Positions 40,460 to 55,549 of a DNA stretch of 64,000 bases are shown here, piece after piece. The notes beneath the pieces are model-generated. The model was not told the DNA's origin, did not search any database, and saw only the letters and a list, made by a program, of their open reading frames with translations. The DNA is taken from the NCBI RefSeq assembly GCF_005049235.1, contig NZ_SUMD01000004.1:62001-126000 (forward strand), in the 5' to 3' direction. Within the stretch, counting starts at the first letter, position 1. Each line of letters opens with the position of its first letter. Made by a program: the position numbers and the translations under genes. The DNA is from Rhodococcus oryzae. GTDB taxonomy: Bacteria; Actinomycetota; Actinomycetes; Mycobacteriales; Mycobacteriaceae.

Positions 40460-40469
40460 GCCGGGTCGT

Positions 40470-40495
40470 GTACCCAATCGGCGCGGGATTCAAGC
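40470..40495 (-). promoter_or_regulatory. Candidate stress-sigma promoter for the catalase-like gene
   Basis: On the minus strand, GCTT (40492-40495), 16 bases, GGGTAC (40470-40475). The -10 box is about ten bases from the ATG at 40459, which would make the mRNA almost leaderless. The -35 match is weak, so confidence is limited. Confidence 0.35.
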
Positions 40496-40639
40496 GGGCA
40501 TGGACCAGAGGATGTGATCCGCTGCCTCAGGCAGGCTCGCTCCAGATTGCGGCCGCCACGGATATCAGCGCGGCGCTCGTTGCGGTCACCTTTGGGCCAG
40601 ATTCGGTGAGTGGGTCATCAGACAATCCGATGTTCGGGT

Positions 40640-40664
40640 GGTTACTTCGGCGGGGGCTGGGTAA
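40640..40664 (+). promoter_or_regulatory. Candidate stress-sigma promoter for the manganese catalase
   Basis: GGTT (40640-40643), 15 bases, GGGTAA (40659-40664); GTTA with a 14-base spacer overlaps it. About 50 bases before the ATG at 40715, leaving room for the GGGAG ribosome site. Confidence 0.45.
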
Positions 40665-40714
40665 TCCCACGGAGACATTGCTCGATCGGCACACCGACAA
40701 CGGGAGAAGTCCCC

Positions 40715-41503
40715 ATGTTCTTGCACAACAAGCGGATGATGTACGACGTCCGAGTCGATCAACCCAACCCGGCGTTCGCGAAAATGCTCCTCGAGCAATT
40801 CGGCGGCCCGAACGGGGAACTCGCTGCCGCGATGCGGTACTTCACGCAGGGATGGAACGAACCGGACGACCAGCGACGCAGCATGCTGCTCGACATCGCG
40901 ACCGAGGAACTCTCGCACCTCGAGATGGTGGCGCAGTCCTTGGTCATGCTCCTGAAAGGTTCACCGTCGGAGCTTGTCGACCAGGTCGAGGGCAACTATC
41001 TCGGGGACCTGTTGGATGGAAAGATGCCTGACTACGTCAATCTCTCCCTCGGTAGCGGGCTGAACCTTCTGGGCGGTGGTGGACCTCGACTGACCGACTC
41101 GATGGGCGCACCTTGGACGGCCGCATATGTCGACACCCTCGGACAACCTGCGGCCGACTTGCGGTCCAACGTTGCCGCCGAGGCGCGGGCGAAGGTCACC
41201 TACGAGCGATTGATCAAATGCTCCGACGATGCCGGGGTCAAGGACACCCTCAACTTCCTGATGACACGAGAAATTGCGCACCAGAAGATCTTCGAAGCTG
41301 CGCTCGATTCGATCGAAGGCAACTTTCCGCCCGGGAGTCTGGACGGAGACGAGAAACTCGGACACGCCTACATTGCCGGCGACACCGGCAATGGTGAGGG
41401 TCCGAGCACAGAGGGATTCGAACTCGCCCAACAGAACAGTTCCTGGGGCTTCGAATTCGACTCCGAGCCCGTCAAGCACGCCTCGAATCAGGACATTCTC
41501 TAG
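40715..41503 (+). CDS. Manganese catalase
   Basis: Di-manganese enzyme splitting hydrogen peroxide. 262 residues from ATG 40715, with GGGAG at 40702-40706; a longer in-frame extension lacks a ribosome site. All five metal ligands of the family are visible: E35 ('PNGELAAAMRYF'), E65 and H68 ('TEELSHLEM'), E156 ('AEARAKVTYERL') and H189 ('REIAHQKIFE'). The C-terminal tail with 'SSWGFEFD' is typical. A candidate stress-sigma promoter lies upstream and a catalase-fold gene is divergent. Confidence 0.92.
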   Translation: MFLHNKRMMYDVRVDQPNPAFAKMLLEQFGGPNGELAAAMRYFTQGWNEPDDQRRSMLLDIATEELSHLEMVAQSLVMLLKGSPSELVDQVEGNYLGDLLDGKMPDYVNLSLGSGLNLLGGGGPRLTDSMGAPWTAAYVDTLGQPAADLRSNVAAEARAKVTYERLIKCSDDAGVKDTLNFLMTREIAHQKIFEAALDSIEGNFPPGSLDGDEKLGHAYIAGDTGNGEGPSTEGFELAQQNSSWGFEFDSEPVKHASNQDIL

Positions 41504-41683
41504 CTGGGCTGTGTCGGCAACGACGCCGGCGATCGATGATCCTCGAGGGTCAGCAACGAGTGCCTTCTCAGCTAGAGCTGTTCGAGTTGCATGTCGGCAG
41601 CACTCTTGCCGTTCTGGACCCAGGTTGTGTGAAGGAGAGGCTACGTTCGCATCTGCACATGTTGGAGCCGTGAAGGGGTCTCG

Positions 41684-42352
41684 ATGGGCGACGGATCGAT
41701 GAGAGCGTTTCGTTTGCCTGGCGTGTATCCGCCGCAACGAGACACGTGGCTGCTGGCAGAGGTGCTCTCTCAAGAAGTCCTGACCCCGACGACGCGGGTA
41801 CTCGATATCTGCGCCGGCACCGGTGCCGTGGGCCTGACCGCATGCCGGGCGGGCGCCGTCCAGGTAACCGCGGTCGACGTGTCACGACGCGCGCTCATCA
41901 ATGCCTGGATCAACGCCCGGATACACCGATGGCCCCTGCGGTTGCGCCGCGGCGATTTGATCGAGCCCGTCAGGAATGAACTGTTCGACGTGATCGTGGC
42001 GAATCCGCCGTATGTGCCGGCGGGCAGCGATCGGCTACCGACCGGCGGGGCCGCACGAGGCTGGGATGCCGGCCGAGACGGGCGGGCGGTATTGGACCGC
42101 CTTTGCGTCCAGGGACCCGAGGTACTTGCCGACGGCGGCCGCCTGTTCATCGTCCAGTCCGCCCTGAGCGGGGTGGAGAAGACCATCGCAATGCTCGAGG
42201 AGCAGGGGTTGCGTGCTGAGGTGGTCCGCCGCACCGAACTTCCATTCGGCCCTGTTCTCTCGGGCCGTCGGGCGATGCTGGTGGCGCGGGGCGTCATCCG
42301 CCCAGATCAATGCATCGAGGAACTCGCTGTCATCAAGGCGTCGAGAATGTAG
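41684..42352 (+). CDS. HemK2/MTQ2-like SAM-dependent methyltransferase
   Basis: 222 residues. 'VLDICAGTGAVGL' is SAM motif I and 'VIVANPPYVP' is the NPPY motif of amino- or glutamine-N-methyltransferases such as HemK/PrmC and eukaryotic MTQ2. It lacks the N-terminal helical domain of PrmC. Similar proteins are found in actinobacteria beside haem-oxygenase-like di-iron and CDGSH genes, as here. The target is unknown; release-factor methylation should not be assumed because a canonical prmC is expected elsewhere in the genome. Confidence 0.8.
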   Translation: MGDGSMRAFRLPGVYPPQRDTWLLAEVLSQEVLTPTTRVLDICAGTGAVGLTACRAGAVQVTAVDVSRRALINAWINARIHRWPLRLRRGDLIEPVRNELFDVIVANPPYVPAGSDRLPTGGAARGWDAGRDGRAVLDRLCVQGPEVLADGGRLFIVQSALSGVEKTIAMLEEQGLRAEVVRRTELPFGPVLSGRRAMLVARGVIRPDQCIEELAVIKASRM

Positions 42353-42389
42353 CCAATCTTGAGGCTGTGACTGATGATCATTCGACGAG

Positions 42390-43478
42390 TTAGCTCGGGT
42401 CACGCAGTGAGCTGACTCCGGCGGCCCAGCAGCTCATCATGTGGTCGGCGACCAGGGCATCTAATGCCAGGCACGCCGCGGCGCCGAACAGCACGCCCTC
42501 CGCCCTCTCCGGATGCTGGCGAATCAGACCACCAGCGAGATCGCGGACCGCGATCTGCTCGTGCACCGAATCGGCTTCCACATGCTCGTCGAAGAACAAT
42601 GTCGCCGCTCGCCCGAACCCGAGCCTCCGGAGCCCAATGCTGTAGAGCTTGCTCGGCACCGAGGACGTCGTCTCGACCGCACACAGGTGTCCCACCAGCT
42701 CACCGAGACATCTGCGATGCAGCCCGAAGAGCGACAATGCGTTCAAGGACGCGAGCGTGACCGCCGGAACCACCATCAGATACTGCGCGTAGCTGTCGTC
42801 CATCCCCACAGCACGCAATGTTTGCGCGAACAGCGCAGAGTGCATGCGTTCCGGGCGGCCGCCGCCGTACTCGTCGTCCTGTATCTCGACCAGCGCCGCC
42901 TTGGGCGCCCCCGACAGGCGGGGAATGCCGAAGGTGTGGACGTCAGCCTCACGGAGCTGATAAAGCGATCGATGGGCGAGTAGTTCCCGGAACTGTTCGA
43001 GAGTGGCTTTGTGTGCCATGTATCGAGAGAGCCCCGGGCCGGTGTCGGCAGCTGCCATCTTCCACAGCGTGGCCTCGATCTTGTTGCGATCGAAGGTCGG
43101 CGGCTTCACCATGTCACGCAGTCCGCGCTCGAAGGGGTGCTCGAGTGCAGTCCGGGCCGCGAGGAGGTCGAGGTCCCACTCCCAGCTGTCGTTCACCCCC
43201 GACAGTCCCTGCAGGTGAAGCTCGTAGAGCAACGTCAGAGTCAGTTGGATGTCCTCGCTGCACAGCACCGCGGCTGGCTCGGTGTGGACCGCCGCACGTT
43301 GAGCTGACTCCCGGAAATCTGCCACAGCCGAATGGCCCGAGAGCACCTCGAGCATCTGCGCGCTCAACGGTCCCCGGGACGGCGGCAACGGCATAGACCG
43401 GGACTGAGGTAACTCTGCGGCAGATGTACGTGAGCTGCTCGCATGCACAGAACTAGGCATGGGGTGTAGAGAGGACAC
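42390..43478 (-). CDS. Iron-containing redox enzyme family protein (haem-oxygenase-like di-iron)
   Basis: 362 residues from GTG 43478, which has GGAG five bases upstream; an ATG at 43394 is the other plausible start. An N-terminal region of about 190 residues precedes the seven-helix domain: 'VEIQDDEYGGG', then H213 in 'ERMHSALFA', 'LFGLHRRCLGELVGHL', and 'DEHVEADSVHEQIAV' with late acidic and histidine ligands. The family includes di-iron oxidases such as UndA and SznF; this subfamily has no known substrate. Start abuts the divergent CDGSH start. Confidence 0.82.
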   Translation of the reverse strand: MSSLHPMPSSVHASSSRTSAAELPQSRSMPLPPSRGPLSAQMLEVLSGHSAVADFRESAQRAAVHTEPAAVLCSEDIQLTLTLLYELHLQGLSGVNDSWEWDLDLLAARTALEHPFERGLRDMVKPPTFDRNKIEATLWKMAAADTGPGLSRYMAHKATLEQFRELLAHRSLYQLREADVHTFGIPRLSGAPKAALVEIQDDEYGGGRPERMHSALFAQTLRAVGMDDSYAQYLMVVPAVTLASLNALSLFGLHRRCLGELVGHLCAVETTSSVPSKLYSIGLRRLGFGRAATLFFDEHVEADSVHEQIAVRDLAGGLIRQHPERAEGVLFGAAACLALDALVADHMMSCWAAGVSSLRDPS

Positions 43479-43721
43479 ATGGACTCCGTTCCTGAACCCG
43501 ACGCGGCCCCGCTAGGCGAGCCCGCTGTCACCATCACTGTCTGCCCCGGTGGCCCTTTGCTTGTTCGTGGACCAGTGCAACTCCTCGATGCCGACGGTAA
43601 TCCTGTTCCCCGTCATCGCAAGGCCATCGCGTTGTGTCGATGCGGTCGCAGCGGTCTGGCACCGTTCTGCGACGGATCGCATAAGCACCGGATACCGGTG
43701 CGATCCCGCACAAAAGACTAG
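43479..43721 (+). CDS. CDGSH iron-sulfur domain protein
   Basis: 80 residues. The three-cysteine, one-histidine [2Fe-2S] motif is exact: 'CRCGRSGLAPFCDGSH'. No membrane anchor. The domain transfers electrons or clusters in other systems; beside the di-iron protein it is a natural candidate electron donor, but that is inference. GAGAGGA precedes the ATG, which is the base next to the divergent start. Confidence 0.88.
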   Translation: MDSVPEPDAAPLGEPAVTITVCPGGPLLVRGPVQLLDADGNPVPRHRKAIALCRCGRSGLAPFCDGSHKHRIPVRSRTKD

Positions 43722-43838
43722 GTCGGTGGGGCGGAATGGCGGCTGAGCCTGAGCCGAGGCCGATGTGGAAGTCCGGCTCGGCCAGGTAAGTGACTTGTCG
43801 ATTCTGCCTTGGTGCGTGGATCCGTGGTGCTGAGTGGG

Positions 43839-44001
43839 TCAGGCATCCTGGCCCGCATCGAGTTGCTGGAAGTCCCCGAACGTGATTCGCGTGGGAATCG
43901 GTCCGTCCCTGACCGGCCGTGGGTTGCAGGACGAAGCCGACGTGATCGCCGAAAGGGAGGCGGTCGAGGATGCGGCCGATGAACCACGAGGGTGCGTGAG
44001 A
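43839..44001 (-). pseudogene. Frameshifted C-terminal remnant of a flavin reductase-like gene
   Basis: On the minus strand one frame reads 'HAPSWFIGRILDRLPFGDHV' followed by 'GFVLQPTAGQ' (about 44001-43912). After a shift of frame the sequence continues 'RITFGDFQQLDAGQDA' to a stop at 43839-43841. Together these look like the C-terminal end of an actinobacterial flavin reductase (GDHVGFLLEP ... DLDPGHDA type). The N-terminal two thirds is not present upstream and no start is seen. The rest of the 43722-44201 gap shows nothing recognisable. Confidence 0.5.
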
Positions 44002-44201
44002 CAACGTTCGTTCGCGTTGAACCGCGGCTATGTACACCATTCATCGGCGGTGGTAGAACGAAAGTGGTTGAGTCCACAGCCTCGGAGCACCCTCTTACAC
44101 GAGAGCCCGCCACGCACCAGCTTCGGTATGTGAGCACCGACTTCTGCCACCCTCGGGTCGCTCGTGCAGGGAGGTTCGTCGACTCCCCGGAGGTCAACAT
44201 C

Positions 44202-44660
44202 ATGCCCAGGTCACCCACCCAGTCCGGTCGCCCGGGACCCCGCCATCCAGCAGATCGGAAAGCGCACCCCCAGGACCACAGCATCGATGCGAGCGTCATG
44301 AGGATCGCGGGCCCATTGGACGCAGCATCGCTGCCTGAGTTCGTCGCCCAGCTCGACGCCGGAATCCGTGGGTCGAGACCCAGCCTTGTGGTGGACCTGT
44401 CCAAGGTGACGTTCCTGTCTGTTTCCGGGATCGAGGCGCTTGCAGCGGCGCGCTGGCGGGCCGGCTGCGACGGCGTGGACCTGCTCCTGGTCGGAGGTCC
44501 TCACTGTGTTGAGCGCGCTTTGGACGTCACCGGTGCTCGGCAACGGTTCCTCATGTTCACTTCCCTCCAGCTAGCGGTTGAGGAATCCCGCAGCATGCCG
44601 TCGCCGCTCGGGTCGGTGTCAGCTTCGGATCGAAGTTTGCCGACCACCGCCGAGGGGTAG
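44202..44660 (+). CDS. STAS-domain anti-sigma factor antagonist
   Basis: 152 residues; ATG 44202 follows GGAGG at 44189-44193, which rules out the longer frame upstream. The STAS fold runs from 'MRIAGPLDAASLPEF' through 'LVVDLSKVTFLSVSGIEAL' (19 residues), where a serine is the expected phosphorylation site, to 'RQRFLMFTSLQLAVEES'. By family it binds an RsbW-type kinase and frees a sigma factor. An RsbW gene lies 2.2 kb downstream on the other strand. Confidence 0.85.
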   Translation: MPRSPTQSGRPGPRHPADRKAHPQDHSIDASVMRIAGPLDAASLPEFVAQLDAGIRGSRPSLVVDLSKVTFLSVSGIEALAAARWRAGCDGVDLLLVGGPHCVERALDVTGARQRFLMFTSLQLAVEESRSMPSPLGSVSASDRSLPTTAEG

Positions 44661-44766
44661 TCGCCGTTTTCTCGTCTCGAACCTGATCGCGCGGCCATCC
44701 CGATCATGAACGGCCGTCACTCCACGGTCGGCGAAGTTTCGCCCGGCCCCGCGGGCACCTTGGTGG

Positions 44767-45576
44767 TCACATTTTGGTGTACCGGGCCATGGCGAAGTTA
44801 TACAGGCCGTAGGTGATGAGCCCGAGACCCGCAACGACGACGAGCACGGGCCCGAAGGGTTGGCTCAGAAGCGATTTCAGCGCGCCGTCGAGTCCGGTCG
44901 CTCGGTTCGGATCCGACACGATCGCGGCCACGACGACTAGCACCCCCACCTCGGCGAGAACGAGTCCCTTCGCGACGTAACCGGCGATACCCAGTGTTCT
45001 CACGACATTGCTGGGCGCGCCGTGGAGGTCCTCGAGGAAGTTCTGGCTCGCGCCCTTGTAGACGTGATATCCGCCGACCGCCACGATCACCAGCCCGGCC
45101 GCCACGAGGGCGACGGTGCCTGCCGTGGATTGCATCATGTGCGCACTGATTCCCGCGTCCTGCTGCCCGGTGGACTTTCCGCGCCCGCGCGCGAATCCCA
45201 AGGTGGAGTAGGCGAATGCGAGGTAGACGACCGCCAGGGCGAAGGCCTTGCCGCGGTCAAAGACCTCGGACATGGGGCCTTGGTCTTTCGGATCGGTCGA
45301 ACGTCCGAATATCGTTTCGGCAAGACGCCAGAGCGCCATCGCCGCGAACGCGACGGTGGCTACCCACAGCGCGAGCACACCGCCCGGCTTGCTCGCCAAC
45401 TCGGCCAGCGCACCGGACTGGTCGGCCGCGCCGCCCCCGCCGAGGGCGAGCCTGATGGCGATGTAGCCGATGATGAGGTGGACGAGGCCGCTGGTGACGT
45501 ATCCCGCGCGGGCGAACCGCTCGAAGACACTATTCTGCGCTACCCGTTCCGCGGAGTCAGTGACGCTATCGCTCAC
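44767..45576 (-). CDS. DUF1206 membrane protein
   Basis: 269 residues. Six membrane helices form three two-helix units, each opening with a short 'ARAGYVTSGLVHLIIG' / 'GKAFALAVVYLAFAYS' / 'GIAGYVAKGLVLAEVG' pattern, the mark of DUF1206. GTG start with GGAGG about nine bases upstream. Members often sit in stress-induced actinobacterial loci. It overlaps a possible upstream disordered ORF by 11 bases. Confidence 0.85.
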   Translation of the reverse strand: MSDSVTDSAERVAQNSVFERFARAGYVTSGLVHLIIGYIAIRLALGGGGAADQSGALAELASKPGGVLALWVATVAFAAMALWRLAETIFGRSTDPKDQGPMSEVFDRGKAFALAVVYLAFAYSTLGFARGRGKSTGQQDAGISAHMMQSTAGTVALVAAGLVIVAVGGYHVYKGASQNFLEDLHGAPSNVVRTLGIAGYVAKGLVLAEVGVLVVVAAIVSDPNRATGLDGALKSLLSQPFGPVLVVVAGLGLITYGLYNFAMARYTKM

Positions 45577-45904
45577 GGCGGCGATCCTCCCGGTGTCGAC
45601 CGGACGTCGGATCCGGATCGGTCCTCGGCCCGTGACACGCCGGATTGACGGGCCGGACCGACACCCGTTCGGTGTCCTCGGTCGAGTCTGGATGTTGGCG
45701 TTCTTCGTCGTCGGACGTCGCCCCGGAGCTCCTGGGCGTGGCGGACGAGCCTGTGGGATCGGTCGTGGTCCTCGATCGCGCCAGATCGTCGCCCGGCGCC
45801 TTCCGACGCGCCTGGCGAGGGCATGCCACGCGAGCCTGGTTCGCCTCGCTCGGACTGTCGTTCACTGAACTCTCGCCCCCGCCCGCTCGTGCTCGTCGGC
45901 CCAC
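45566..45904 (-). CDS. Possible disordered polar protein upstream of DUF1206
   Basis: An open frame of 112 codons rich in Arg, Ser, Thr, Asp and Pro ('DEERQHPDSTEDTERVSV'), with no hydrophobic core and no family match. Its end overlaps the DUF1206 start by 11 bases, which is what a real operon partner would do, but the ribosome site of DUF1206 also lies in this stretch and the frame may be chance. It fills most of the 353-base gap between DUF1206 and the CsbD gene. Confidence 0.3.
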   Translation of the reverse strand: MGRRARAGGGESSVNDSPSEANQARVACPRQARRKAPGDDLARSRTTTDPTGSSATPRSSGATSDDEERQHPDSTEDTERVSVRPVNPACHGPRTDPDPTSGRHREDRRRER

Positions 45905-45929
45905 GAGCGGGCGTCAACATTGGGTCAGG

Positions 45930-46103
45930 TCAGTCCTTGAAGGCGTCCTTGACCTTCTCGCCGGCCTGCTTAAGGTTGCCTTTGGCTTGGTCCTTGCGGC
46001 CCTCGGCCTCAGTGTCCTTGTCGCCGGTGGCCTCTCCGACCTTCTCTTTGGCCTTTCCTGCCACTTCTTCGGCCTTGTTCTTCGCCTTGTCGACGGCGCC
46101 CAT
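45930..46103 (-). CDS. CsbD family stress protein (copy 1)
   Basis: 57 residues from ATG 46103 with AAGGAG upstream. Lys/Glu/Ala-rich amphipathic helix with the CsbD core 'KEKVGEATGDKDTEAEGRK' and 'DQAKGNLKQAGEKVKDAF'. CsbD is a general-stress gene in Bacillus and its relatives are SigB/SigF targets; molecular function unknown. A candidate stress-sigma promoter with GGGTAT stands upstream. A second copy lies at 49202-49396. Confidence 0.88.
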   Translation of the reverse strand: MGAVDKAKNKAEEVAGKAKEKVGEATGDKDTEAEGRKDQAKGNLKQAGEKVKDAFKD

Positions 46104-46179
46104 TGTGTCTCCTTTGCAATCGTTGATCTTGCCGCGGGTTCGCGGACAGTGAGCCGCGTGGAACGCGGCCAGGGTCTGG

Positions 46180-46204
46180 ATACCCAATCCCGCCGATGTC
46201 TAAC
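46180..46204 (-). promoter_or_regulatory. Candidate stress-sigma promoter for CsbD copy 1
   Basis: On the minus strand, GTTA (46201-46204), 15 bases, GGGTAT (46180-46185). The start codon is 77 bases downstream. The spacer forms part of the hairpin that ends the gene upstream. Confidence 0.5.
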
Positions 46205-46220
46205 GGTTCTCGGCGGGATT
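46186..46220 (-). terminator. Hairpin after YtxH copy 1, overlapping the next promoter
   Basis: AATCCCGCCGA (46186-46196) and TCGGCGGGATT (46210-46220) form a perfect 11-base-pair stem with a 13-base loop, six bases past the stop of the leftward gene ending at 46226. The -35 element for CsbD copy 1 lies in the loop and the -10 just beyond the stem. Confidence 0.6.
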
Positions 46221-46225
46221 CGTTG

Positions 46226-46558
46226 TCATTGCTCGTCGGCGGCATCGTGGTGATGCAAGTGGCTCGAAGCCGTCCCGGCGGCGTGTTTCGCAGAGTCCGC
46301 CAGGTTCTGCGCCGCGTGCCGCGTTGCGTCAGCGGCCTGCGACTCGGCGGCCCGGTCGAGAATCTCGTGTGCCTTGCCGGGCAGGTCAATCTTCTGCAGC
46401 CGTTCTCTGGCCTCGGGGACGTGCTCCTTGACAGCCTGGGTGACGGTGTGGCCGGCCTCGACTGCAACGAGTCCCGCCCGCCTGCTTCCGTCGACGATCG
46501 CACCGATGGCGGCTCCCGTGGCGGCGCCGATGATCATTCCTATCCACAGATTGCGCAT
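46226..46558 (-). CDS. YtxH-like small protein (copy 1)
   Basis: 110 residues from ATG 46558. A glycine-rich N-terminal helix ('GMIIGAATGAAIGAIVDG') is followed by a long polar amphipathic region and a His-rich tail, the YtxH/general-stress layout. There is no ribosome site, but a GTTT-N16-GGGCAT promoter-like sequence ends ten bases before the ATG, so a leaderless message is likely and supports this start. Confidence 0.65.
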   Translation of the reverse strand: MRNLWIGMIIGAATGAAIGAIVDGSRRAGLVAVEAGHTVTQAVKEHVPEARERLQKIDLPGKAHEILDRAAESQAADATRHAAQNLADSAKHAAGTASSHLHHHDAADEQ

Positions 46559-46567
46559 GACGTAGGT

Positions 46568-46593
46568 ATGCCCGTTCAGGTGCGAGCGCAAAC
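46568..46593 (-). promoter_or_regulatory. Candidate stress-sigma promoter for YtxH copy 1
   Basis: On the minus strand, GTTT (46590-46593), 16 bases, GGGCAT (46568-46573). Spacing and both boxes match the site before YtxH copy 2 exactly. Transcription would begin within a few bases of the ATG at 46558. Confidence 0.5.
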
Positions 46594-46812
46594 GCCGGCG
46601 ACGGTGACCGCCCGTTGCTCCATCCGCGGCGCGGCTGGGTTTGCCCCTCCGGATTCGGTGGTCGGTTGGGGCGCAGGACGCCTACGCCCGGTCGGCTGAA
46701 ACATCTCGTTGCGGACCTCGGCGACCTCGGTCACGTCCATCCCGAGTTCGGACGAGATTTCACCCGCCAACGGTGCCATGCCCAGCCGCTGAGGAAGCGT
46801 CGCGACCGTCAT
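46576..46812 (-). CDS. Truncated SigF/SigB-type sigma-factor fragment (region 3 only)
   Basis: 78 residues. After the first four residues 'LPQRLGMAPLAGEISSELGM' aligns with sigma region 3 of SigF/SigB ('ELSQRLGRAPTASELAAALD' type) and 'DVTEVAEVRNEM' continues it. Regions 1.2, 2 and 4 are absent; the tail is Pro/Arg/Ala-rich. The ATG overlaps the RsbW stop by four bases, exactly where sigF begins after rsbW (usfX) in M. tuberculosis. It is probably an internal-deletion derivative of sigF; whether it still binds RsbW is unknown. Confidence 0.6.
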   Translation of the reverse strand: MTVATLPQRLGMAPLAGEISSELGMDVTEVAEVRNEMFQPTGRRRPAPQPTTESGGANPAAPRMEQRAVTVAGVCART

Positions 46813-47243
46813 CTTTTATCTCGAGACGGTGGTTCTTCATCCGCCGCGGCGCCCCTCTTATCGAACTCGACCGTTGTGAGGAACTCGTTTGCTTGCGCGC
46901 CGAGCGGTGCGTGCGTGACGGAAATCGAATCGGTCAGGACCCGCAGTACGTGCCAACCGAAGCCGTCCTCACGAGGGCGTCGCCCCGTGCGCGTGATCGT
47001 GGACACTCGCATGTGCAGCACCCCACCGCTCAATTCGTAGCGGCAGATCAGTTTCGCGTCGACCACTGCATCCTTGATAAGTTCCGAGCACACCTCGTCC
47101 ACCGCCAGCTTGACGTCGGAAACCTCATCGAGGTTGAACTCGCCCGACACGGCGATGGTTTCGGGCACCGCGCGCAGCACCGGCAGCTGCGCGAAGTCGG
47201 CGGACACGCGCAGTTCGACCGGCGCGCCCAGCGTTGCGCTCAC
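46809..47243 (-). CDS. RsbW/UsfX-type anti-sigma factor
   Basis: 144 residues of the GHKL serine-kinase fold. 'LDEVSDVKLAVDEVCSELI' and 'DGFGWHVLRVLTDSISV' match M. tuberculosis RsbW (UsfX) closely ('ADLRLAVDEVCTRLI', 'FSWHVLTALADDV'). The N-box asparagine of classical SpoIIAB is replaced, as in UsfX. GTG start overlaps the stop of an 8-codon upstream frame (47240-47266). A stress-sigma-like promoter lies about 95 bases upstream, which would close a feedback loop. Confidence 0.83.
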   Translation of the reverse strand: MSATLGAPVELRVSADFAQLPVLRAVPETIAVSGEFNLDEVSDVKLAVDEVCSELIKDAVVDAKLICRYELSGGVLHMRVSTITRTGRRPREDGFGWHVLRVLTDSISVTHAPLGAQANEFLTTVEFDKRGAAADEEPPSRDKR

Positions 47244-47339
47244 CTCCGGCAGTCGTTCGTTGTCATGAGCACTCCGTTGCGTCGTCGCTTTGATCTCGTC
47301 GTCACTCCGAAATCCCGGCCCCGCCCGATGAGCCGAAGG

Positions 47340-47364
47340 CTACCCACAGCGGTGACATTCCAAC
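47340..47364 (-). promoter_or_regulatory. Candidate stress-sigma promoter for RsbW
   Basis: On the minus strand, GTTG (47361-47364), 15 bases, GGGTAG (47340-47345). The M. tuberculosis usfX-sigF operon is transcribed from a SigF promoter of this kind. Apart from this site and the DUF4383 promoter the 365-base gap 47244-47608 holds no recognisable gene. Confidence 0.45.
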
Positions 47365-47524
47365 CCTCCGACGTCTCACTCTCGGGCCTTGCTCCGAGTG
47401 CCGTAGCTGCACAACTGGTGGGTGAGTGCCCCTCCGCGAAGAGCATGTATCCGATCAGTGCGGGCCCCAGGCCCTGGTCGAACAGGGTCTGCAGAAGTAC
47501 CTGCGTATGGGGTCCGCAATCGCG

Positions 47525-47549
47525 GTTCGGAGGCCGGTGGCTTGGGTAT
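47525..47549 (+). promoter_or_regulatory. Candidate stress-sigma promoter for DUF4383
   Basis: GTTC (47525-47528), 15 bases, GGGTAT (47544-47549), about 60 bases before the ATG at 47609. The GAGGAGG ribosome site lies between. Confidence 0.5.
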
Positions 47550-47608
47550 CCGCGAGGGCGGCCGAAAGGTCTCCGTCGTCCCGGAGGGGCAAACGAGGAG
47601 GTTCGGTG

Positions 47609-48079
47609 ATGTCACGGTCTCGGCTCGCGAGTGCCCTTCCTGTCCAGAAGGCTGCTCTCGTGTTCGCGTTGGTGTTCGTGACTGTCGGGTTGCTCGGTTT
47701 TGTGCCGGGCGTGACGACCGACTACGCCATGCTCGCCCTGGCCCATGATTCGCACGCTGAACTGTTCGGCGTGTTCGAGGTCTCGGTCCTGAACAACGTC
47801 GTGCATCTGGTGTTCGGCGTGGTCGGTGTCGCTTCGTGCCGATGGGTCGGCGCATCCGCGCTCTTCCTGGTGCTCGGGGGAATCATCAATCTGTTGTTCT
47901 GGGTCTACGGCCTGATTGTCGACGAAGAGTCAGGGGCGGACTTCTTGCCCACCAACCCGGCCGACTACTGGCTCCATTTCGGGCTGGGTCTGGCGATGAT
48001 CGCCGTCTTCTTCGCGACGCCGCGCCTCGGCACCACGGCCGCAACCGATCCGCATCTTCCGCATTCTCCGGTCGAGTGA
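47609..48079 (+). CDS. DUF4383 membrane protein
   Basis: 156 residues; ATG 47609 with GAGGAGG at 47595-47601. Four membrane helices with 'FGVFEVSVLNNVVHLVFGV', 'LVLGGIINLLFWVYGLIVD' and a loop 'NPADYWLHFGLGLAMIAVFF' (20 residues) are the DUF4383 pattern. Function unknown; often among stress-induced genes in actinobacteria. Confidence 0.85.
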   Translation: MSRSRLASALPVQKAALVFALVFVTVGLLGFVPGVTTDYAMLALAHDSHAELFGVFEVSVLNNVVHLVFGVVGVASCRWVGASALFLVLGGIINLLFWVYGLIVDEESGADFLPTNPADYWLHFGLGLAMIAVFFATPRLGTTAATDPHLPHSPVE

Positions 48080-48165
48080 CCGGGGCCCGTTATTTGCGCC
48101 AAACCCAGCGCGAGCATCGCCGACGTCACCGCAGCTGGGTACACACAACTGCGGATCGCGCGGTC

Positions 48166-48187
48166 GGCGTGGAGAGACCTCCACGCC
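48166..48187. terminator. Hairpin between convergent DUF4383 and YtxH copy 2
   Basis: GGCGTGGA (48166-48173) and TCCACGCC (48180-48187) form an 8-base-pair stem with a six-base loop, 20 bases from the end of the leftward gene. It can serve either strand. Confidence 0.5.
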
Positions 48188-48207
48188 ATGCCACGCCGTC
48201 TGGCTCC

Positions 48208-48561
48208 TCAGGGGGTGCGCTTGCCGCCCATCGGTGGTGAAACGGGCGGTTCCGCCGCCGGAGTTGGGGTCGCAGCTTCTTCCAGCGGCGCTCCGGCGGC
48301 GGAGGCGGTGATCGCGCTCGTGTCAGCGCCGTCAGCGCCGTGGTGGGTAGCCTTCTTCGCCAGGGCACCGACCTTCTGCTGCAGCTTCGGGGCCTTATCC
48401 TTCACGGTCTCCGTTGCGCCGCTCACCTTCTCCTTCACGGCGGGGTTGTGCCAAAGTTCGACGGACTGATCCCTCATCTTCTCGTAGGTTTGCCTGCCAG
48501 CCCGGGTTCCCAGAACGAAGCCCACGGCCGCCCCCGCTGCGAAGAACAACGTTTTCACCAT
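48208..48561 (-). CDS. YtxH-like small protein (copy 2)
   Basis: 117 residues from an ATG with GGGAG seven bases upstream. A short hydrophobic N-terminus ('TLFFAAGAAVGFVLGTRAG') with a Gly-x3-Gly pattern, then an amphipathic helix ('VKEKVSGATETVKDKAPKL') and an Ala/Pro-rich tail. General-stress YtxH family, role unknown. Confidence 0.75.
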   Translation of the reverse strand: MVKTLFFAAGAAVGFVLGTRAGRQTYEKMRDQSVELWHNPAVKEKVSGATETVKDKAPKLQQKVGALAKKATHHGADGADTSAITASAAGAPLEEAATPTPAAEPPVSPPMGGKRTP

Positions 48562-49201
48562 GACATCTCCCGATTGTTGTGTGAGACGGGCGGTCAGCCG
48601 GATCGTCGTCAGAACGCCCTGCTACGGCTATGCCCGCAGGCAGCCGAGTGCAAACCGCCGAAACGGGCGGTTGAGAAAGCAGCAGTTCAGAGTGCCGAGG
48701 GGACGTGTTCAGGGGAGATGCATCACCTTCCCTGCAAGGGCGAAGAGGAGCGGGCAAGCCTCACGGTGGGGATGCCCAGCGGAAGGAGGATGACCGTCAC
48801 CGGGAGGCTTGTCTGGCACGTGGTGACGTCCGCACAAATTGCGGGAGTATCAGCGACCTCAGCAGGTCACAATCAGCCGACCGCAAACCACCGATGTGTT
48901 TCACGAGGAATCAGCGAAGAGCAGGCTGCGGATTTCGCCCATCCACACGGGCCCGGGCCTCGGAAGACCGGGCCGTTGGCGTGTTGAAACCGCACCGTCA
49001 ATGTGAGGGGTTTGGTCCAGGCGTCAGGGGGAACCCGAAGGTTGAGGCCCTCCGGTGGGGGGCAATCGACCTGCGGCCCCTCGGGATGAACCACCCGATG
49101 GGGGCAGTCACGACATCGCACACTGGCGCCGCACAGATGCGAACAACCCTCGGCCCCCGCGCCCGCGCGGGCCGATCACCCAACAGAGAAGAAGTACCGC
49201 C
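48562..49201. other. 640-base stretch with a promoter but no convincing gene
   Basis: Its left end holds the YtxH copy 2 promoter candidate. A 65-residue frame at 48790-48987 starts at an ATG directly after GGAAGGAGG but has no family match and the spacing is too short. A 13-base word GAAACGGGCGGTT is shared with the end of the YtxH gene (48239-48251). I see no terminator or RNA gene. Confidence 0.45.
48630..48655 (-). promoter_or_regulatory. Candidate stress-sigma promoter for YtxH copy 2
   Basis: On the minus strand, GTTT (48652-48655), 16 bases, GGGCAT (48630-48635), about 70 bases before the ATG at 48561. Confidence 0.5.
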
Positions 49202-49396
49202 ATGAGCATCGGGAAGAAGCTTCGGCACAAGGCTGAAACCGCAGAGGGTGCAGCCAAGAAGACGGTCGGTAAGGCTCTCGGAAACGAACGCATGGAAGCA
49301 GAGGGGCGCGCAGACCAGGCCAAGGGCAACACCAAGCAAACCGGAGACAAGCTCAAGCAAGCGGGACAGAAGATCAAGCACGCCTTCAAACACTGA
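49202..49396 (+). CDS. CsbD family stress protein (copy 2)
   Basis: 64 residues. Core 'KTVGKALGNERMEAEGRAD' and 'QAKGNTKQTGDKLKQAG' repeat the CsbD copy 1 pattern. Lys/Ala-rich helix. Weak GAGAAG site before the ATG. It is followed after 60 bases by a small membrane protein, likely on the same transcript. Confidence 0.87.
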   Translation: MSIGKKLRHKAETAEGAAKKTVGKALGNERMEAEGRADQAKGNTKQTGDKLKQAGQKIKHAFKH

Positions 49397-49456
49397 CCCG
49401 CGCTCACACCGTTCGATACCCCATCCCCGGTCCCTCTCCCGAATCAGGTCGTCATC

Positions 49457-49612
49457 ATGTTCATTCTCGGAATCATCCTCGCCATCGTCGGCGCGGTTGC
49501 CAGCATTCCCGTCCTGTTGTACATCGGGGTCGCCCTTATCGTCATCGGCGTGGTGCTCGAGATCATGGGCATGACCGGCCACGCTGTGGCGGGCCGACGC
49601 CACTACTACTGA
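49457..49612 (+). CDS. Small two-helix membrane protein (DUF6131-like)
   Basis: 51 residues, almost all hydrophobic: 'MFILGIILAIVGAVASIPVL' then 'LYIGVALIVIGVVLEIMG', ending 'GRRHYY'. Small actinobacterial proteins of this type are filed as DUF6131. It is too short for many gene finders, but the ATG, composition and tail are convincing. Confidence 0.65.
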   Translation: MFILGIILAIVGAVASIPVLLYIGVALIVIGVVLEIMGMTGHAVAGRRHYY

Positions 49613-49699
49613 CCCAGTAGTCCGAGTTGTAGTTCACCGGACCCGACCGCGCCGCGACGTTCGAGGTGGGGGTAAAGGACCGGAATCTGGAGCAGACGC

Positions 49700-50920
49700 A
49701 TGGCGATCTCCGACATCAAGGAATACGCGCACCTCACCGCTGACGACGTCGAGGCGCTGCGCGCCGAACTGGACAGTATCCGGCAAGACGTCACTGAGTC
49801 GCTCGGCGAGAAGGACGCCAGATATATCCGCCGCACCATCGCCTTCCAACGGCTGCTCGATACGGCGGCCCGGTTGGTGATCCACGGTAGTAGGTCGCCG
49901 GCGGGGTGGATTCTCGGGGCGACGGCGCTCGGTGTGGCCAAGAGTGTGGAGAACATGGAGATCGGCCACAATGTCTGTCACGGGCAGTGGGACTGGATGA
50001 ACGACCCGGAAATCCACTCCAGCACCTGGGAATGGGACATGGTCGGGCTGTCGTCGCACTGGCGTTACTCCCACAACTACCGCCACCATGTGTTCAGCAA
50101 CGTTGTCGGGATGGACGATGACCTCGGCTACGGCGTCATCAGGATCACCCGCGACCAGCCATGGAAGCTGGACAATCTGTTGCAACCGGTGCGAAACCTG
50201 TTCTTGGCGGTGACATTCGAATGGGGCATCGCCCTGCACGACCTGTATTCCGAACAGGCCCGCGCCGACACAGACGCCGAGAAATCGGCGCATCGCAGAG
50301 CATTGATTGGGAAGATCGCCCGACAGACGGGAAAGGACTACCTGCTCATCCCCGCCCTCCGCGGACGCCGCTGGCGACGAACCCTCACGGCTAACCTGAC
50401 CGCTAACCTGCTGCGGAATGTGTGGGCGTACGTGGTGATCTTCTGCGGGCACTTTCCCGACGGAGCCGAGAAATTCACCCTCACTGAACTCGAGGACGAG
50501 AGCCGGGCGGAATGGTATCTGCGTCAGATGCTCGGCGCGGCGAACTTCCACGCCGGCCCGGTGTTGGCGTTCCTGAGCGGCAACCTCTGCTACCAGATCG
50601 AACATCACCTGTTTCCCGACCTCCCCAGCAACCGCTACGCGGGGATCTCCACCAAGGTGCGCGCCTTGTGCGAAAAGTACGACCTGCCGTACACCACCGG
50701 GTCGCTGGCACGGCAATACCTTCTGACGCTGCGGACCATCCATAAACTCGCCCTGCCCGACCGATTCCTGCGTGCGACCTCCGATGATGCGCCGGAAACG
50801 GCCTCCGAACTGAAATTCCGCCCATCGTTCCCGGTGCCCGCTGACGTCAACACCGAGCGACGGGTGGGACTGCGCACCGCCCTACGCAACGCGCCCGCCG
50901 GGACGAGGCGCCATCGGTAG
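49700..50920 (+). CDS. Membrane fatty acid (acyl-CoA or acyl-lipid) desaturase
   Basis: 406 residues. The three histidine boxes of the membrane di-iron desaturases are present: 'HNVCHGQWDW', 'HNYRHHVFSN' and 'QIEHHLFPDLP'. The QxxHH third box matches front-end or DesA3-like groups. Two hydrophobic stretches flank the boxes. Positional specificity cannot be told. It lies within the stress-gene run, in line with membrane adjustment under stress. Confidence 0.88.
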   Translation: MAISDIKEYAHLTADDVEALRAELDSIRQDVTESLGEKDARYIRRTIAFQRLLDTAARLVIHGSRSPAGWILGATALGVAKSVENMEIGHNVCHGQWDWMNDPEIHSSTWEWDMVGLSSHWRYSHNYRHHVFSNVVGMDDDLGYGVIRITRDQPWKLDNLLQPVRNLFLAVTFEWGIALHDLYSEQARADTDAEKSAHRRALIGKIARQTGKDYLLIPALRGRRWRRTLTANLTANLLRNVWAYVVIFCGHFPDGAEKFTLTELEDESRAEWYLRQMLGAANFHAGPVLAFLSGNLCYQIEHHLFPDLPSNRYAGISTKVRALCEKYDLPYTTGSLARQYLLTLRTIHKLALPDRFLRATSDDAPETASELKFRPSFPVPADVNTERRVGLRTALRNAPAGTRRHR

Positions 50921-51168
50921 ACAGGATCCGGGCATAGAACGTAATGGCGCGGTGGGCGGTGCCGCGGAACTCAGTGATGCCGATTGCCGCGCCTGCACCG
51001 CGGGCAACGGCCCAATGCCCGGAACGACCGCGGTGACCCCGTGCCCCTGATCCTGAGCGGTAGGCACCGGGCAACGTAGAGGGACTGCCAGTAGCCAGGT
51101 GGTCGATCAGCCACCGGTGACGCCGCGTTGGGGCGCCTCGTGTATGCCGGGTTCCTGCGCCGAATTGG

Positions 51169-51194
51169 GTTTCCGAGGATCGCCCTGCGGGTAA
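51169..51194 (+). promoter_or_regulatory. Candidate stress-sigma promoter at the head of the gas-vesicle region
   Basis: GTTT (51169-51172), 16 bases, GGGTAA (51189-51194). The ATG of the next gene is at 51204, so the transcript would start at or within a few bases of it and be leaderless. This is one of the three sites with a full GTTT -35 box. Confidence 0.55.
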
Positions 51195-51203
51195 CTGCTG
51201 TTT

Positions 51204-52112
51204 ATGGGTGCACGAGTTGGAACAAGCGGCCGGACACCGGTCACGTCGCACCGAGACGGCACGGTCGGCAACGCCAAGACCGCCGATGGTGACAGCCTGA
51301 ATGCGACCGCAAGAACCACGCCGACAGCCCGGCCATCCAAGACGGCGAAAAGGCCTGCGGCGTCCACCACAACAGGCACCGGGCGTCTGCCACGCAGGCG
51401 ACCGACGGCCACGCGGGCGACCACAGCCACCTCACGACGCAGCCCACGGCGGGCTGAACCCACATCGCAACGTAAGCGAACACACGACGCCGGCGACTCG
51501 ACGTCGGGCACGCCCCGGCGTCAGCGTCCCGACCGCACCACGCCCTCCGGGCGTGCGCCGGAGCGGACCACCACCGCGAAGCCGGCGGCCCGCAAGCGTC
51601 CTGGAGGCGAGGGGTCCCGCGCGTCCGCGCAGCGGCAGTCCACGTCACCGAGTCGCACACGACGACCGGACCCGTCAGCGAAGGAGACCGAACGCGGGGG
51701 GCCTGCCGACACCACACGGAGTTGGGTGCCGCGGCCGGTCGAGTCCGCCGTCGAGTGGCTGAATACCCAAATTCACCGGCTTCTGGAGAGCATGCGAGAT
51801 CGCAGCGCCGGGGTGACGAAAAAGTTCCAGCAGAAGATCCGGGAGTGGGTGGAAACCCTCGTCGAGGAGGTCGCACACGGCGGGGCGGGCATGAAAGCCG
51901 GACTCGAAGCCCTCAGGGCCGCCCTGACGGGTAAGAATCCTGTGTGGGCCGCGATCAAAGGTCTGGTGTCCGGGTTGAGCGGCAAGGCCAAGATCGCCCT
52001 GATTCTGCTCCTGGTCCTCGGAGTCCTTCTCGGGCCGGTGCTCCTCGTGGTCCTGCTGCTGGCCCTTCTTGCCATGGTGATCGTGGCGGCGGTGCGATCC
52101 GCGGCAGGCTGA
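51204..52112 (+). CDS. Unrecognised basic disordered protein with C-terminal membrane hairpin
   Basis: 302 residues. Residues 1 to about 165 are low-complexity, rich in Thr, Ser, Arg and Pro and strongly basic ('RKRPGGEGSRAS'). A helical segment follows ('SAVEWLNTQIHRLLESMRDR', 'KKFQQKIREWVETLVEEV'), then a very hydrophobic C-terminal hairpin ('KIALILLLVLGVLLGPVLL'). I know no family for it. It heads the gas-vesicle run behind a stress-type promoter and has no ribosome site, as expected for a leaderless gene. A role in gas-vesicle tethering or DNA/membrane contact is speculation. Confidence 0.7.
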   Translation: MGARVGTSGRTPVTSHRDGTVGNAKTADGDSLNATARTTPTARPSKTAKRPAASTTTGTGRLPRRRPTATRATTATSRRSPRRAEPTSQRKRTHDAGDSTSGTPRRQRPDRTTPSGRAPERTTTAKPAARKRPGGEGSRASAQRQSTSPSRTRRPDPSAKETERGGPADTTRSWVPRPVESAVEWLNTQIHRLLESMRDRSAGVTKKFQQKIREWVETLVEEVAHGGAGMKAGLEALRAALTGKNPVWAAIKGLVSGLSGKAKIALILLLVLGVLLGPVLLVVLLLALLAMVIVAAVRSAAG

Positions 52113-52133
52113 CCTGACCTGACCTGACCTGAT
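52109..52133 (+). repeat. CTGAC pentanucleotide repeat across a stop codon
   Basis: Four perfect CTGAC units (52109-52128) plus CTGAT; the stop codon TGA of the preceding gene is in the first unit. Slippage would alter only the 3' untranslated tract. Confidence 0.6.
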
Positions 52134-52359
52134 CGATCGGTGCGCGGGGCCGATTCGTGAGAAGGCGGCTCGCAGACTCCTCGGCATTGCGCAACCTGTG
52201 ATCACGAGCGAGGTCCTTGCTCGACGATGTTGGCCGAAAATGTGTTGTGGCGGTGGTTGAGCGTTGCCGGGTTGGGGTAGTCCGACACTGCACACGCCGA
52301 CCGCGCACGGTCTTGCGACACATCACCGAAGGCCGCGACGCGCTGCCGAAGTCAGCGTG

Positions 52360-52384
52360 GGGTGCGTGGCGACTACTCGGGTAA
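52360..52384 (+). promoter_or_regulatory. Candidate stress-sigma promoter for the gas-vesicle operon proper
   Basis: GGGT (52360-52363), 15 bases, GGGTAA (52379-52384). The ATG at 52398 is 13 bases past the -10 box, so the message would have a leader of only a few bases. Confidence 0.4.
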
Positions 52385-52397
52385 AAGGGGTTCGACG

Positions 52398-53084
52398 ATG
52401 AAGACCAAAGGTCAGGTGGCTGTGGCTGTCGGCGCGGGATATCTACTGGGCCGGACACGCAGAATGAAGATGGCGATGATGCTCGCGGCCGCGGGCGCAA
52501 CCGGACGCTTCCCCGGAGGACCGCGAGATTTGCTGGAACGCGGCACGAAAATGCTGGCGCACTCCCCGGAGCTCGCGAAGATCGGCGACACGGTCCGAGG
52601 AGAATTGGTGAACGCAGCGAAGGCAGCGGCGGTCACTGCTGCCAGCCAGCGCATCGACTCGCTGAGCAACCGGCTCCAATCGGGTGGCCAGGTGGTCACG
52701 GGAACCGTCAGTGACGTCACGGACACTGTCGATGATGTCACCAAAGTGGGGAGATTCGGGCGCAAGAAGCGCGCTCGTTCGCGGGCCGACGAGGAGGCCA
52801 CTGCCGACGAACAGCCGGAGAACGACTACGCGGACGAAGAAGACGAGGCCGACGACTACGAGGAGCCTGACGACGACGAGGTCGACGAGGAACCGACCCC
52901 ACCCAAACGCCCTGCGGCGCGCCGCAGGAGGACAAGCGGCAGCACCCGGCCCACCAGCAAGTCGGGGACCACGAAGTCCGACGAAGACCGCGATGACGAT
53001 GACGAAGCGGCTCCTGCCCGCAAACACAGGACTCGGGCCAAGGCCACGACGGACTCTGCGCCCGTCCGACGGGCACGGAGGTGA
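52398..53084 (+). CDS. Gas-vesicle operon protein with acidic/basic disordered tail (GvpY-like position)
   Basis: 228 residues. An N-terminal hydrophobic/glycine stretch ('VAVAVGAGYLLGRTRRMKMA') leads into a helical middle and then a striking tail: an acidic block of Asp/Glu (about residues 130-170), a basic block ('KRPAARRRRTSGSTRP'), another acidic run and a final basic end. Streptomyces gvp clusters carry two non-canonical genes called gvpY and gvpZ before gvpJ; this gene and the next occupy a similar place, but homology is not proven. Overlaps the next gene region by coupled starts. Confidence 0.65.
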   Translation: MKTKGQVAVAVGAGYLLGRTRRMKMAMMLAAAGATGRFPGGPRDLLERGTKMLAHSPELAKIGDTVRGELVNAAKAAAVTAASQRIDSLSNRLQSGGQVVTGTVSDVTDTVDDVTKVGRFGRKKRARSRADEEATADEQPENDYADEEDEADDYEEPDDDEVDEEPTPPKRPAARRRRTSGSTRPTSKSGTTKSDEDRDDDDEAAPARKHRTRAKATTDSAPVRRARR

Positions 53085-53089
53085 TGGCG

Positions 53090-54127
53090 ATGACGAACGC
53101 CACAAACAAGCTACGAGAGGCCGGACCAGGCGACGGGAACGGCTCGTCGAGCGTGCTGCAGGACGCGGTGCAGAGGTTGTTCGGCACTGTCGCGGACAAA
53201 GCGCTGTCCTCGGTCTCGGACAAGGTGCTGAACACCTCCGGTCGGCTCACTGAGTACGCCGAGGGCGGCGGCGGAGGTTTGCTCGCCGCGGTCACCGGTT
53301 CCGAGAAACTGGCCGAGGGCCAATCGCCGCTCAAAGCCGCACTCAATGGGGGCTGGGAGGGCACCAAGAACAAGGTCAAGGACAAGGTCAAGGACAAGGT
53401 CTCCGACGTCAAGGACGCGGTCACCGGCGGCCGCAATGGCGATGACGACGGTGGCAAGGGGAAGGGCAAGGGCAAGAAACTCAAGATCACCAACATCGTC
53501 GAATCGATCGACGTCGGTGTCCCCGTGCAACTCGCGTACGACCAATGGACGCAGTTCGCCGACTTCCCGTCATTCATGAAGAAGCTCGAACTGGTCGAGC
53601 AGGTCTCCGACGAAAAGCTGCAATGGAAGGCGCAGGTCTTCTGGTCGCACCGCACCTGGGAATCGATGATCATCGAGCAGGTCCCCGCCGAACGGATCGT
53701 CTGGCGTTCGAAGGGCGCCAAGGGATACGTCGACGGCGCCGTGACGTTCCACGAGCTGACTCCCGATCTCACCCGCATCCTCGTCGTGCTCGAGTATCAC
53801 CCGCAGGGCTTCTTCGAAAAGACGGGAAACATTTGGCGAGCCCAGGGTCGGCGAATGCGATTGGAGCTGAAGAACTTCCAACGTCATGTCATGACAAGTA
53901 CGGTTCTACATCCCGACGACGTCGAGGGCTGGCCCGGGGAAATCCGGGACGGTGAGGTGGTCGAGCCAGAGCAGGACGAGTACGAAATGGACACGGACGA
54001 GGACGCAGTCGAAGAGGACGAGGGCGCCGCTGAGGAGGACGAGGCGCCGCCGCCGAAACGCCGAGGCCGCCCGCGCAAGACCGCGGCCGCGCAGTCCGCC
54101 GGCTCAAAGCAAGGAGCCTCCCGATGA
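53090..54127 (+). CDS. SRPBCC-domain protein of the gas-vesicle operon, with AT-hook-like tail
   Basis: 345 residues from ATG 53090 (GGAGG 53077-53081); ATG 53084 is possible. A helical N-terminal part with Lys/Asp repeats ('[10 protein letters not shown]') leads to a START/SRPBCC domain at about residues 125-270 ('[20 protein letters not shown]', '[14 protein letters not shown]', '[17 protein letters not shown]'). An Asp/Glu tail ends in '[11 protein letters not shown]', an AT-hook-like motif. It overlaps gvpA by four bases. SRPBCC domains bind hydrophobic ligands, which would suit the hydrophobic vesicle shell, but that is inference. Confidence 0.75.
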
Positions 54128-54498
54128 CCACCGGTGGGCCCAGCTCGAGCAGCCTCGCCGACGTCATCGACACCATCCTCGACAAAGGCATGGTCATCGA
54201 CGCGTACGTGCGGGTCTCGCTGGTCGGCATCGAGCTGCTGACGATCGACGCCCGCGTCGTCGTCGCCAGCGTCGACACGTATCTGCGATTCGCGGAGGCG
54301 GTGAACCGGCTCGAGATCGGCAGCGAGCCCAATGGCCTGACGGATCTGGTGGGGTCCGTGACCGAAGGCGGTGCCAGGTCGAAAACCAGGGGCGCGCTCG
54401 AGGCCGCCGGCGACAAACTCGGCGATCTCCTCGGCGGCGGAGACGAGGAATCCGAAGGCGAGCGAGTGCCGCGTAAATCCAGCCGAGAGGACACGTGA
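54124..54498 (+). CDS. gvpA: Gas vesicle major structural protein GvpA, with C-terminal extension
   Basis: 124 residues. Residues 7-65 match canonical GvpA closely: '[20 protein letters not shown]' then '[20 protein letters not shown]' and '[17 protein letters not shown]', the amphipathic helix-beta-beta-helix of the vesicle rib. A charged tail of about 55 residues follows, longer than in cyanobacterial GvpA (about 70 in all). ATG overlaps the preceding stop. Of the three GvpA-family genes here this one is nearest the structural protein. Confidence 0.88.
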
Positions 54499-55286: not shown

Positions 55287-55290
55287 GGCG

Positions 55291-55542
55291 ATGGGACTGC
55301 TGTCGTTCATTGTCACGCTGCCACTGGCGCCGGTGCGTGGAGTGGTCTCGCTCGCCGAGTTGATCCAGCGACAGGTCGAGGAGGAACTGCACGACCCCGC
55401 CACCGCCCGCCGCGAGCTCGAGGAGTTGGAAGATGCCCGCGCGGCGGGAGAAATCTCCACCGAGGCGGAAGAGCAAGCGCAGCAGGCCATCCTGGACCGG
55501 ATGACCGCGGCAGACCCGGCCACCACCGCGGAGAAGGAGTGA
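55291..55542 (+). CDS. gvpG: Gas vesicle protein GvpG
   Basis: 83 residues. 'LPLAPVRGVVSLAELIQRQV' is the GvpG N-terminal motif, followed by an acidic coiled helix ('ARRELEELEDARAAGEIS'). Accessory protein needed for vesicle assembly in other organisms. Four bases separate it from gvpF. Confidence 0.9.
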   Translation: MGLLSFIVTLPLAPVRGVVSLAELIQRQVEEELHDPATARRELEELEDARAAGEISTEAEEQAQQAILDRMTAADPATTAEKE

Positions 55543-55549
55543 GGAGGTC

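Follow-up and report, generated by a model that had tools for sequence, protein, structure and literature searches.

A probable SigF-regulon gene cluster that includes the gas-vesicle operon in a Rhodococcus-like actinobacterium

The DNA analyzed here is a stretch of 64,000 nucleotides (the window), corresponding to bases 62001-126000 of contig C26 in the 5.37-Mb genome of a Rhodococcus-like actinobacterium, and the system of interest is an accessory block of stress-type genes within it together with the gas-vesicle (gvp) operon that follows. Judging from the sequence, this block is very probably a gene cluster belonging to the regulon of the general-stress sigma factor SigF, gas vesicles included. 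One SigF/SigB-type regulon comprising the gas vesicles was also the core of the original prediction, and it is supported by the single SigF gene of the genome and by the enrichment, placement and conservation of the candidate promoters.

Enrichment and placement of SigF-type sites

For the sites of the block to be judged without circularity, an external position matrix was derived from 64 Mycobacterium smegmatis promoters of genes marked as lower in sigF mutants in two studies (Table 1 of PMC4694148). Of the 65 rows that carry the mark 'a' in that table it uses all but MSMEG_0266, and unmarked rows were deliberately excluded; adding the MSMEG_0266 row makes no material difference (block 9, rest of the window 0, control 7 sites of at least 15 bits). 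The matrix was run on both strands of the window, with positions 40301-52400 (12.1 kb) taken as the block for all counts. Controls were 19 hand-picked stretches of the same genome, 380 kb in total, and 60 dinucleotide shuffles of the block.

All of the window's ten highest scores come from positions 40475 to 52275, inside the block. Of sites scoring at least 15 bits, the block has 9, the rest of the window (51.9 kb) has none and the control has 6, against a shuffle mean of 0.38 (maximum 2). At 13 bits or more the corresponding figures are 10, 0 and 28, with a shuffle mean of 1.5 (maximum 6). None of 60 column-permuted matrices reached 9 block sites at 15 bits (maximum 4) and one reached 10 at 13 bits, while a matrix with A and T exchanged finds 2 and 5 block sites at the respective thresholds. 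The exact pattern GKTT-N15/16-GGGYA is found 9 times in the block, 0.33 being expected. The excess of stress-sigma-like sites in the block is thus confirmed as real and far above chance.

Concerning placement, eight of the ten top sites lie no more than 150 bp upstream of a gene on the same strand, a zone that makes up 10% of positions, and 8 of the 17 listed genes (block and edges) have a top-ten site within that distance; gene-to-site distances are approximate, because the start codons are our own calls. The three full GTTT boxes claimed earlier, at 46590-46593 (-), 48652-48655 (-) and 51169-51172 (+), are exactly where they had been located, and both YtxH genes indeed share the GTTT-N16-GGGCAT form (15.5 bits each). 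All nine genes for which a stress-sigma-like site had been proposed do have a candidate upstream, although that of CsbD copy 1 is weak and that of the gas-vesicle operon had been misplaced (see below). As for the gene labels, Mn catalase and CsbD copy 1 stand by Pfam, whereas the YtxH copies and RsbW stay under their cut-offs, and the catalase-like open reading frame (ORF; 39779-40477) found no match in Pfam or NCBIfam under the thresholds applied. YtxH copy 1 gives a weak YMGG gly-zipper match only and reaches no Pfam YtxH cut-off, while copy 2 scores 25.8 bits, the cut-off being 37.5. The features are collected in Table 1.

Table 1. Candidate promoters and genes of the block, the gas-vesicle operon and the sigF gene (window coordinates unless a contig is given).
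Feature	Position	Strand	Details
Candidate SigF promoter, GCTT-N16-GGGTAC	40470..40495	-	13.8 bits; 95 bp upstream of the start taken for ORF 39779-40375
SigF-type promoter of the Mn catalase gene, GGTT-N15-GGGTAA	40640..40664	+	15.6 bits
Manganese catalase	40715..41503	+	PF05067, 229 bits
STAS-domain, anti-sigma-antagonist-like gene	43992..44660	+	PF01740; TIGR00377 41 bits, under cut-off 53.45
CsbD-like copy 1	45930..46103	-	PF05532, 64.5 bits
Weak candidate promoter of CsbD copy 1, GTTA-N15-GGGTAT	46180..46204	-	11.9 bits; 77 bp before ATG
SigF-type promoter of YtxH/gly-zipper copy 1, GTTT-N16-GGGCAT	46568..46593	-	15.5 bits; 10 bp before ATG
RsbW-like HATPase protein	46809..47243	-	PF13581 24.4 bits, under cut-off 27.4
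SigF-type promoter of the RsbW-like gene, GGTT-N16-GGGTAG	47340..47365	-	15.5 bits
SigF-type promoter of the DUF4383 gene (47609-48079), GGTT-N16-GGGTAT	47524..47549	+	15.5 bits
SigF-type promoter of YtxH copy 2 (48208-48561), GTTT-N16-GGGCAT	48630..48655	-	15.5 bits
SigF-type promoter of gene 51204, GTTT-N16-GGGTAA	51169..51194	+	19.2 bits; 10 bp before ATG
gvp-adjoining gene without family (gene 51204)	51204..52112	+	no Pfam match
Gas-vesicle operon promoter, GGTT-N16-GGGTAG	52255..52280	+	15.5 bits; -10 at 52275; 118 bp before ATG 52398
Gas-vesicle operon	52398..57888	+	Pfam matches
gvp operon, first gene	52398	+	no Pfam match
gvp operon, SRPBCC-type	53081	+	Pfam
gvp operon, Gas_vesicle family	54124, 55837, 57025	+	Pfam
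gvp operon, GvpL/F	54495, 56234	+	Pfam
gvp operon, GvpG	55291	+	Pfam
gvp operon, GvpO	55550	+	Pfam
gvp operon, GvpK	57236	+	Pfam
gvp operon, last gene, unassigned	57574	+	no Pfam match
sigF gene	C26:435354-436025		on the window's contig, about 320 kb from the block

The gas-vesicle operon and its predicted promoter

Gas_vesicle (GvpA-type), GvpL/F, GvpG, GvpK and GvpO genes follow each other in one run, each above its Pfam cut-off, and the best-matching named relative of the GvpF protein is that of Rhodococcus wratislaviensis (86% identity). The original prediction had placed the promoter of this operon at a GGGTA at 52379-52384, which scores 11.8 bits; the better candidate is the GGTT-N16-GGGTAG at 52255-52280. 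The site near 52380 was rejected, as it would use GGGT as its -35 box and its GGGTA is missing from six aligned relatives (one has CGGTA). The upstream site retains an invariant -10 box and a -35 box of the form GRTTGAG, with a variable spacer, in seven aligned Rhodococcus-type sequences, two of which are nearly identical (L092 matches L069 almost completely in the aligned stretch and hence is not independent).

A wider set consisted of 22 named loci found through GvpF, in 18 of which the first gene of the operon could be anchored; the others are L070 and L071, both with the site in the alignment, and truncated L077 and L079. A site of at least 11.5 bits precedes the first gvp gene in 14 of the 18 loci (1.4 expected, 2 on the opposite strand) and one of at least 14.5 bits in 11 (0.24 expected, 0 on the opposite strand), but these are not 18 independent cases, since four Amycolatopsis and five Sphaerisporangium loci are included. 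Sites above the lower threshold were obtained in Rhodococcus, Prauserella, Amycolatopsis, Actinophytocola, a Nocardiopsaceae bin and Sphaerisporangium, with the named Rhodococcus and Prauserella loci scoring 11.8-12.7 bits. In another set built on the first gvp gene, 13 rows were scored and one was dropped at a contig edge; eight of the 13 belong to a single genome (G027), L100 and L105 being two pieces of one gene, and four of the five remaining rows reach 13 bits. In that genome (L092, L099-L105) the first gvp gene occurs about seven times. Five copies share a contig, and GRTT-N16-GGGTAG lies upstream of five of the seven.

Gene 51204, which adjoins the operon, has relatives that also adjoin gvp genes in Rhodococcus and Gordonia (38-65% identity in five named loci), and in three of these five a site lies 10-11 bp before the start (19.3, 14.0 and 11.3 bits).

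It should be noted that within the gvp leader (52308-52350) some 20 bases, CGGTCYTGCGACACATC, are conserved and recur imperfectly in several aligned Rhodococcus loci; they are possibly a regulator site. A structured RNA in this leader was considered and dropped, the fold z-score (+0.57) and an unfavourable covariation term (+1.84) giving it no support.

Conservation upstream of related genes

For relatives of four block proteins, 350 bp upstream of the best locus per genome were scored; the opposite strand and, for each region, 20 letter shuffles served as controls. In each case 29 genomes were scored, out of 47 other genomes matching for Mn catalase, 102 for RsbW, 57 for DUF4383, 30 for YtxH copy 2 and 38 for the housekeeping gene rpe, the negative control. 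Sites of at least 15 bits precede 22 of 29 Mn catalase relatives (shuffles 0.3), 14 of 29 DUF4383 relatives (shuffles 0.1) and 11 of 29 RsbW relatives (opposite strand 1, shuffles 0.6), compared with 0 of 29 for rpe under the same procedure; many of the scored relatives are just 30-55% identical, so orthology is not a given. For YtxH copy 2 the count is 4 of 29, including the three closest relatives (opposite strand 0, shuffles 0.2).

The SigF gene and its locus

One gene in the genome exceeds the SigB/F/G family cut-off (294 bits, cut-off 234), and NCBIfam NF005514 identifies it as SigF (384 bits, cut-off 372). An RsbW-like gene lies directly before it, with matches to RsbW models under their cut-offs (31.9 of 145 bits), and its product is 37% identical to the RsbW-like protein of the block. 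Four perfect GTTT-N16-GGGTA sites (19.2 bits) surround the pair within 3 kb. Neighbouring genes are CsbD-, DUF6131- and STAS-like and resemble genes of the block, as judged by eye from their translations; CsbD copy 1, in particular, is closely similar by eye to the CsbD-type paralogue beside sigF (L049:11442-11615). Given these lookalikes and sites, the block has the appearance of a second, accessory SigF cluster, part of whose genes are paralogues of those at the sigF locus. A fifth site, GTTT-N15-GGGCAT, is also seen in this locus (L049:8900-12700, contig C26:433900-437700).

In M. smegmatis it is established that SigF is held by RsbW until stress and then transcribes its own operon and further promoters. 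By analogy, the RsbW-like anti-sigma factor would keep SigF inactive here, and stress would free it through partner switching. The freed SigF would then transcribe its own operon and fire about eight GNTT-N15/16-GGGYA promoters in the block, yielding Mn catalase, the YtxH-like proteins, DUF4383, the RsbW-like protein, the 51204 protein and the gas-vesicle operon. The RsbW-like and STAS genes of the block probably feed back on the SigF switch, as proposed for M. smegmatis RsbW3; the STAS gene shows no convincing SigF site of its own in the matrix scan.

Alternative explanations

Several observations weigh against a SigF cluster of this extent. Nine genes out of 17 lack a nearby upstream top-ten site (the methylase gene 41684, 42390, 43479, STAS 43992, DUF1206 44767, both CsbD genes, DUF6131 and the desaturase gene), the site of CsbD copy 1 is weak (11.9 bits), and the best sites upstream of CsbD copy 2 in four relatives reach only 4.8-10.9 bits. 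Two of the top ten sites were rejected as promoters: 44655+ falls within the 3' end of the STAS gene and points towards an oppositely oriented gene, and 49029+ lies 168 bp before CsbD copy 2 and is not conserved. Opposite-strand sites of at least 15 bits also occur in 6 of 29 Mn catalase and 3 of 29 DUF4383 relatives, and 25 of the 29 YtxH copy 2 relatives, most of them remote, stay below that score. Genome-wide, moreover, three counts of the exact motif are modestly above those of the reversed control (21 against 14, 23 against 13 and, for GKTT-N15/16-GGGYA, 147 against 109); a single site is therefore weak evidence outside clusters of this kind.

A side effect of base composition, with no sigma factor involved, might be considered for the motif excess, as the intergenic DNA of the block is richer in AT (GC 0.63-0.66 in the block against 0.68 in the window) and the control stretch of lowest GC (0.648) is also the richest in sites of at least 13 bits, with 5 in 20 kb. 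We regard this as extremely improbable: the dinucleotide shuffles and permuted matrices described above fall far short of the block, against the 11-22 of 29 relatives of Mn catalase, DUF4383 and RsbW that have a site, shuffled upstream regions yield 0.1-0.6, and rpe gives none. These controls refute the explanation for the block as a whole, although single sites could be due to chance. That the block promoters are read by another sigma factor of the same specificity class is very unlikely too; nine SigB homologues share promoters in Streptomyces coelicolor, according to PMC8346170, but here the other three SigB/F/G matches score 22-136 bits, well under the cut-off of 234, the next best after SigF being the one at 136. 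More weight, though still a rather small one, goes to the possibility that the stress genes form a SigF regulon while the gvp operon is driven mainly from elsewhere, its GGTT-N16-GGGTAG being incidental or minor. The -35 box of the Rhodococcus gvp operons is GGTT or GATT and deviates from GTTT, no good site was found in the three scorable Nocardia loci or the Gordonia locus (best 7.5 and 4.6 bits), and the S. coelicolor gvp genes are described as responding to argR and glnK mutations as well. These points, which also count against the inclusion of the gas vesicles in the regulon, are met by the invariant -10 and the GRTTGAG box kept across variable spacers in the Rhodococcus-type alignment, and by the 11 of 18 loci at 14.5 bits or more, which come from four genera or groups outside Rhodococcus (several being congeners).

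Relation to known systems

The SigF-cluster reading agrees in several respects with what is described for M. smegmatis. The promoter form there is GTTT-N14-19-GGGTA and sigF also lies next to rsbW, with which it is cotranscribed (PMC4694148). Its reported SigF targets likewise include a Mn catalase and an extra RsbW gene: the Mn catalase MSMEG_6213 and KatA need sigF (PMC4694148), and RsbW3 (MSMEG_1787) depends on it and has been suggested to boost SigF by sequestering RsbW1 (PMC7693655). As in the RsbW3/RsfA arrangement of that report, the block has an extra RsbW homologue with a SigF-type promoter and a STAS antagonist gene nearby, but here the two are separated by 2.1 kb that contain other genes, and the booster role is putative. 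The M. smegmatis regulon differs in that here the gvp operon and its neighbour 51204 carry the promoter; in Table 1 of PMC4694148, where many entries are unnamed, none is labelled as a gas-vesicle gene.

The gvp operon of S. coelicolor (SCO6499-6508) is reported to be SigB-dependent, a sigma factor of the SigB family switching it on when salt stress occurs (Lee et al. 2005, cited in PMC6629963 and PMC5733086). A SigB-type promoter before the first gvp gene, expected of such an operon, is present here, and a salt-stress switch may be shared; the two systems belong to different actinobacterial families, there are nine SigB homologues there and one SigF here, and here the operon lies within a cluster of other SigF-type promoters. 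The link between gas vesicles and a general-stress sigma factor, which had been thought notable, is likely here but therefore less new than first assumed, and stress-sigma control of gas vesicles in general is not new. No report of SigF-controlled gas vesicles in mycobacteria or Rhodococcus appeared among the titles and abstract beginnings listed from the open-licence literature, nor any of stress-sigma gvp control among actinobacteria outside Streptomyces in a literature that leaves aside most subscription journals. What is added is the likely occurrence of such control in Rhodococcus-type bacteria and in other families, along with its precise promoter and a tie to an accessory SigF cluster.

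Genomic setting

The flanks of the region are, judging by their translations, rsmB (35359-36666) and rpe (57912-58583). Between them lie about 21 kb (36700-57900), with lower GC in the 40-58 kb part. Elsewhere this junction often holds little: in 15 of the 30 rpe loci compared (that of the window counted), rsmB precedes rpe at a distance of no more than 1 kb. In the five same-genus relatives of the window, rsmB did not appear within the 1.5 kb examined. The rsmB-rpe junction is a possible insertion hotspot.

Implications

The genera with sites before gvp genes belong to the Nocardiaceae, Pseudonocardiaceae, Streptosporangiaceae and Nocardiopsaceae, and SigB control is reported in Streptomyces as well. 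Whether SigB/SigF control of gvp operons is an old and widely kept actinobacterial trait, and the gas vesicles of soil actinobacteria are stress-response bodies and not floats, we judge to be evenly balanced; the conservation of a stress-sigma promoter before gvp genes across several genera suggests that they take part in the general stress response. If this is true, the gas vesicles of the present organism would travel with a stress cluster that holds its own RsbW/STAS booster of SigF. For testing the role of gas vesicles, the finding supplies a defined promoter, a sigma factor and a set of putatively co-regulated genes.

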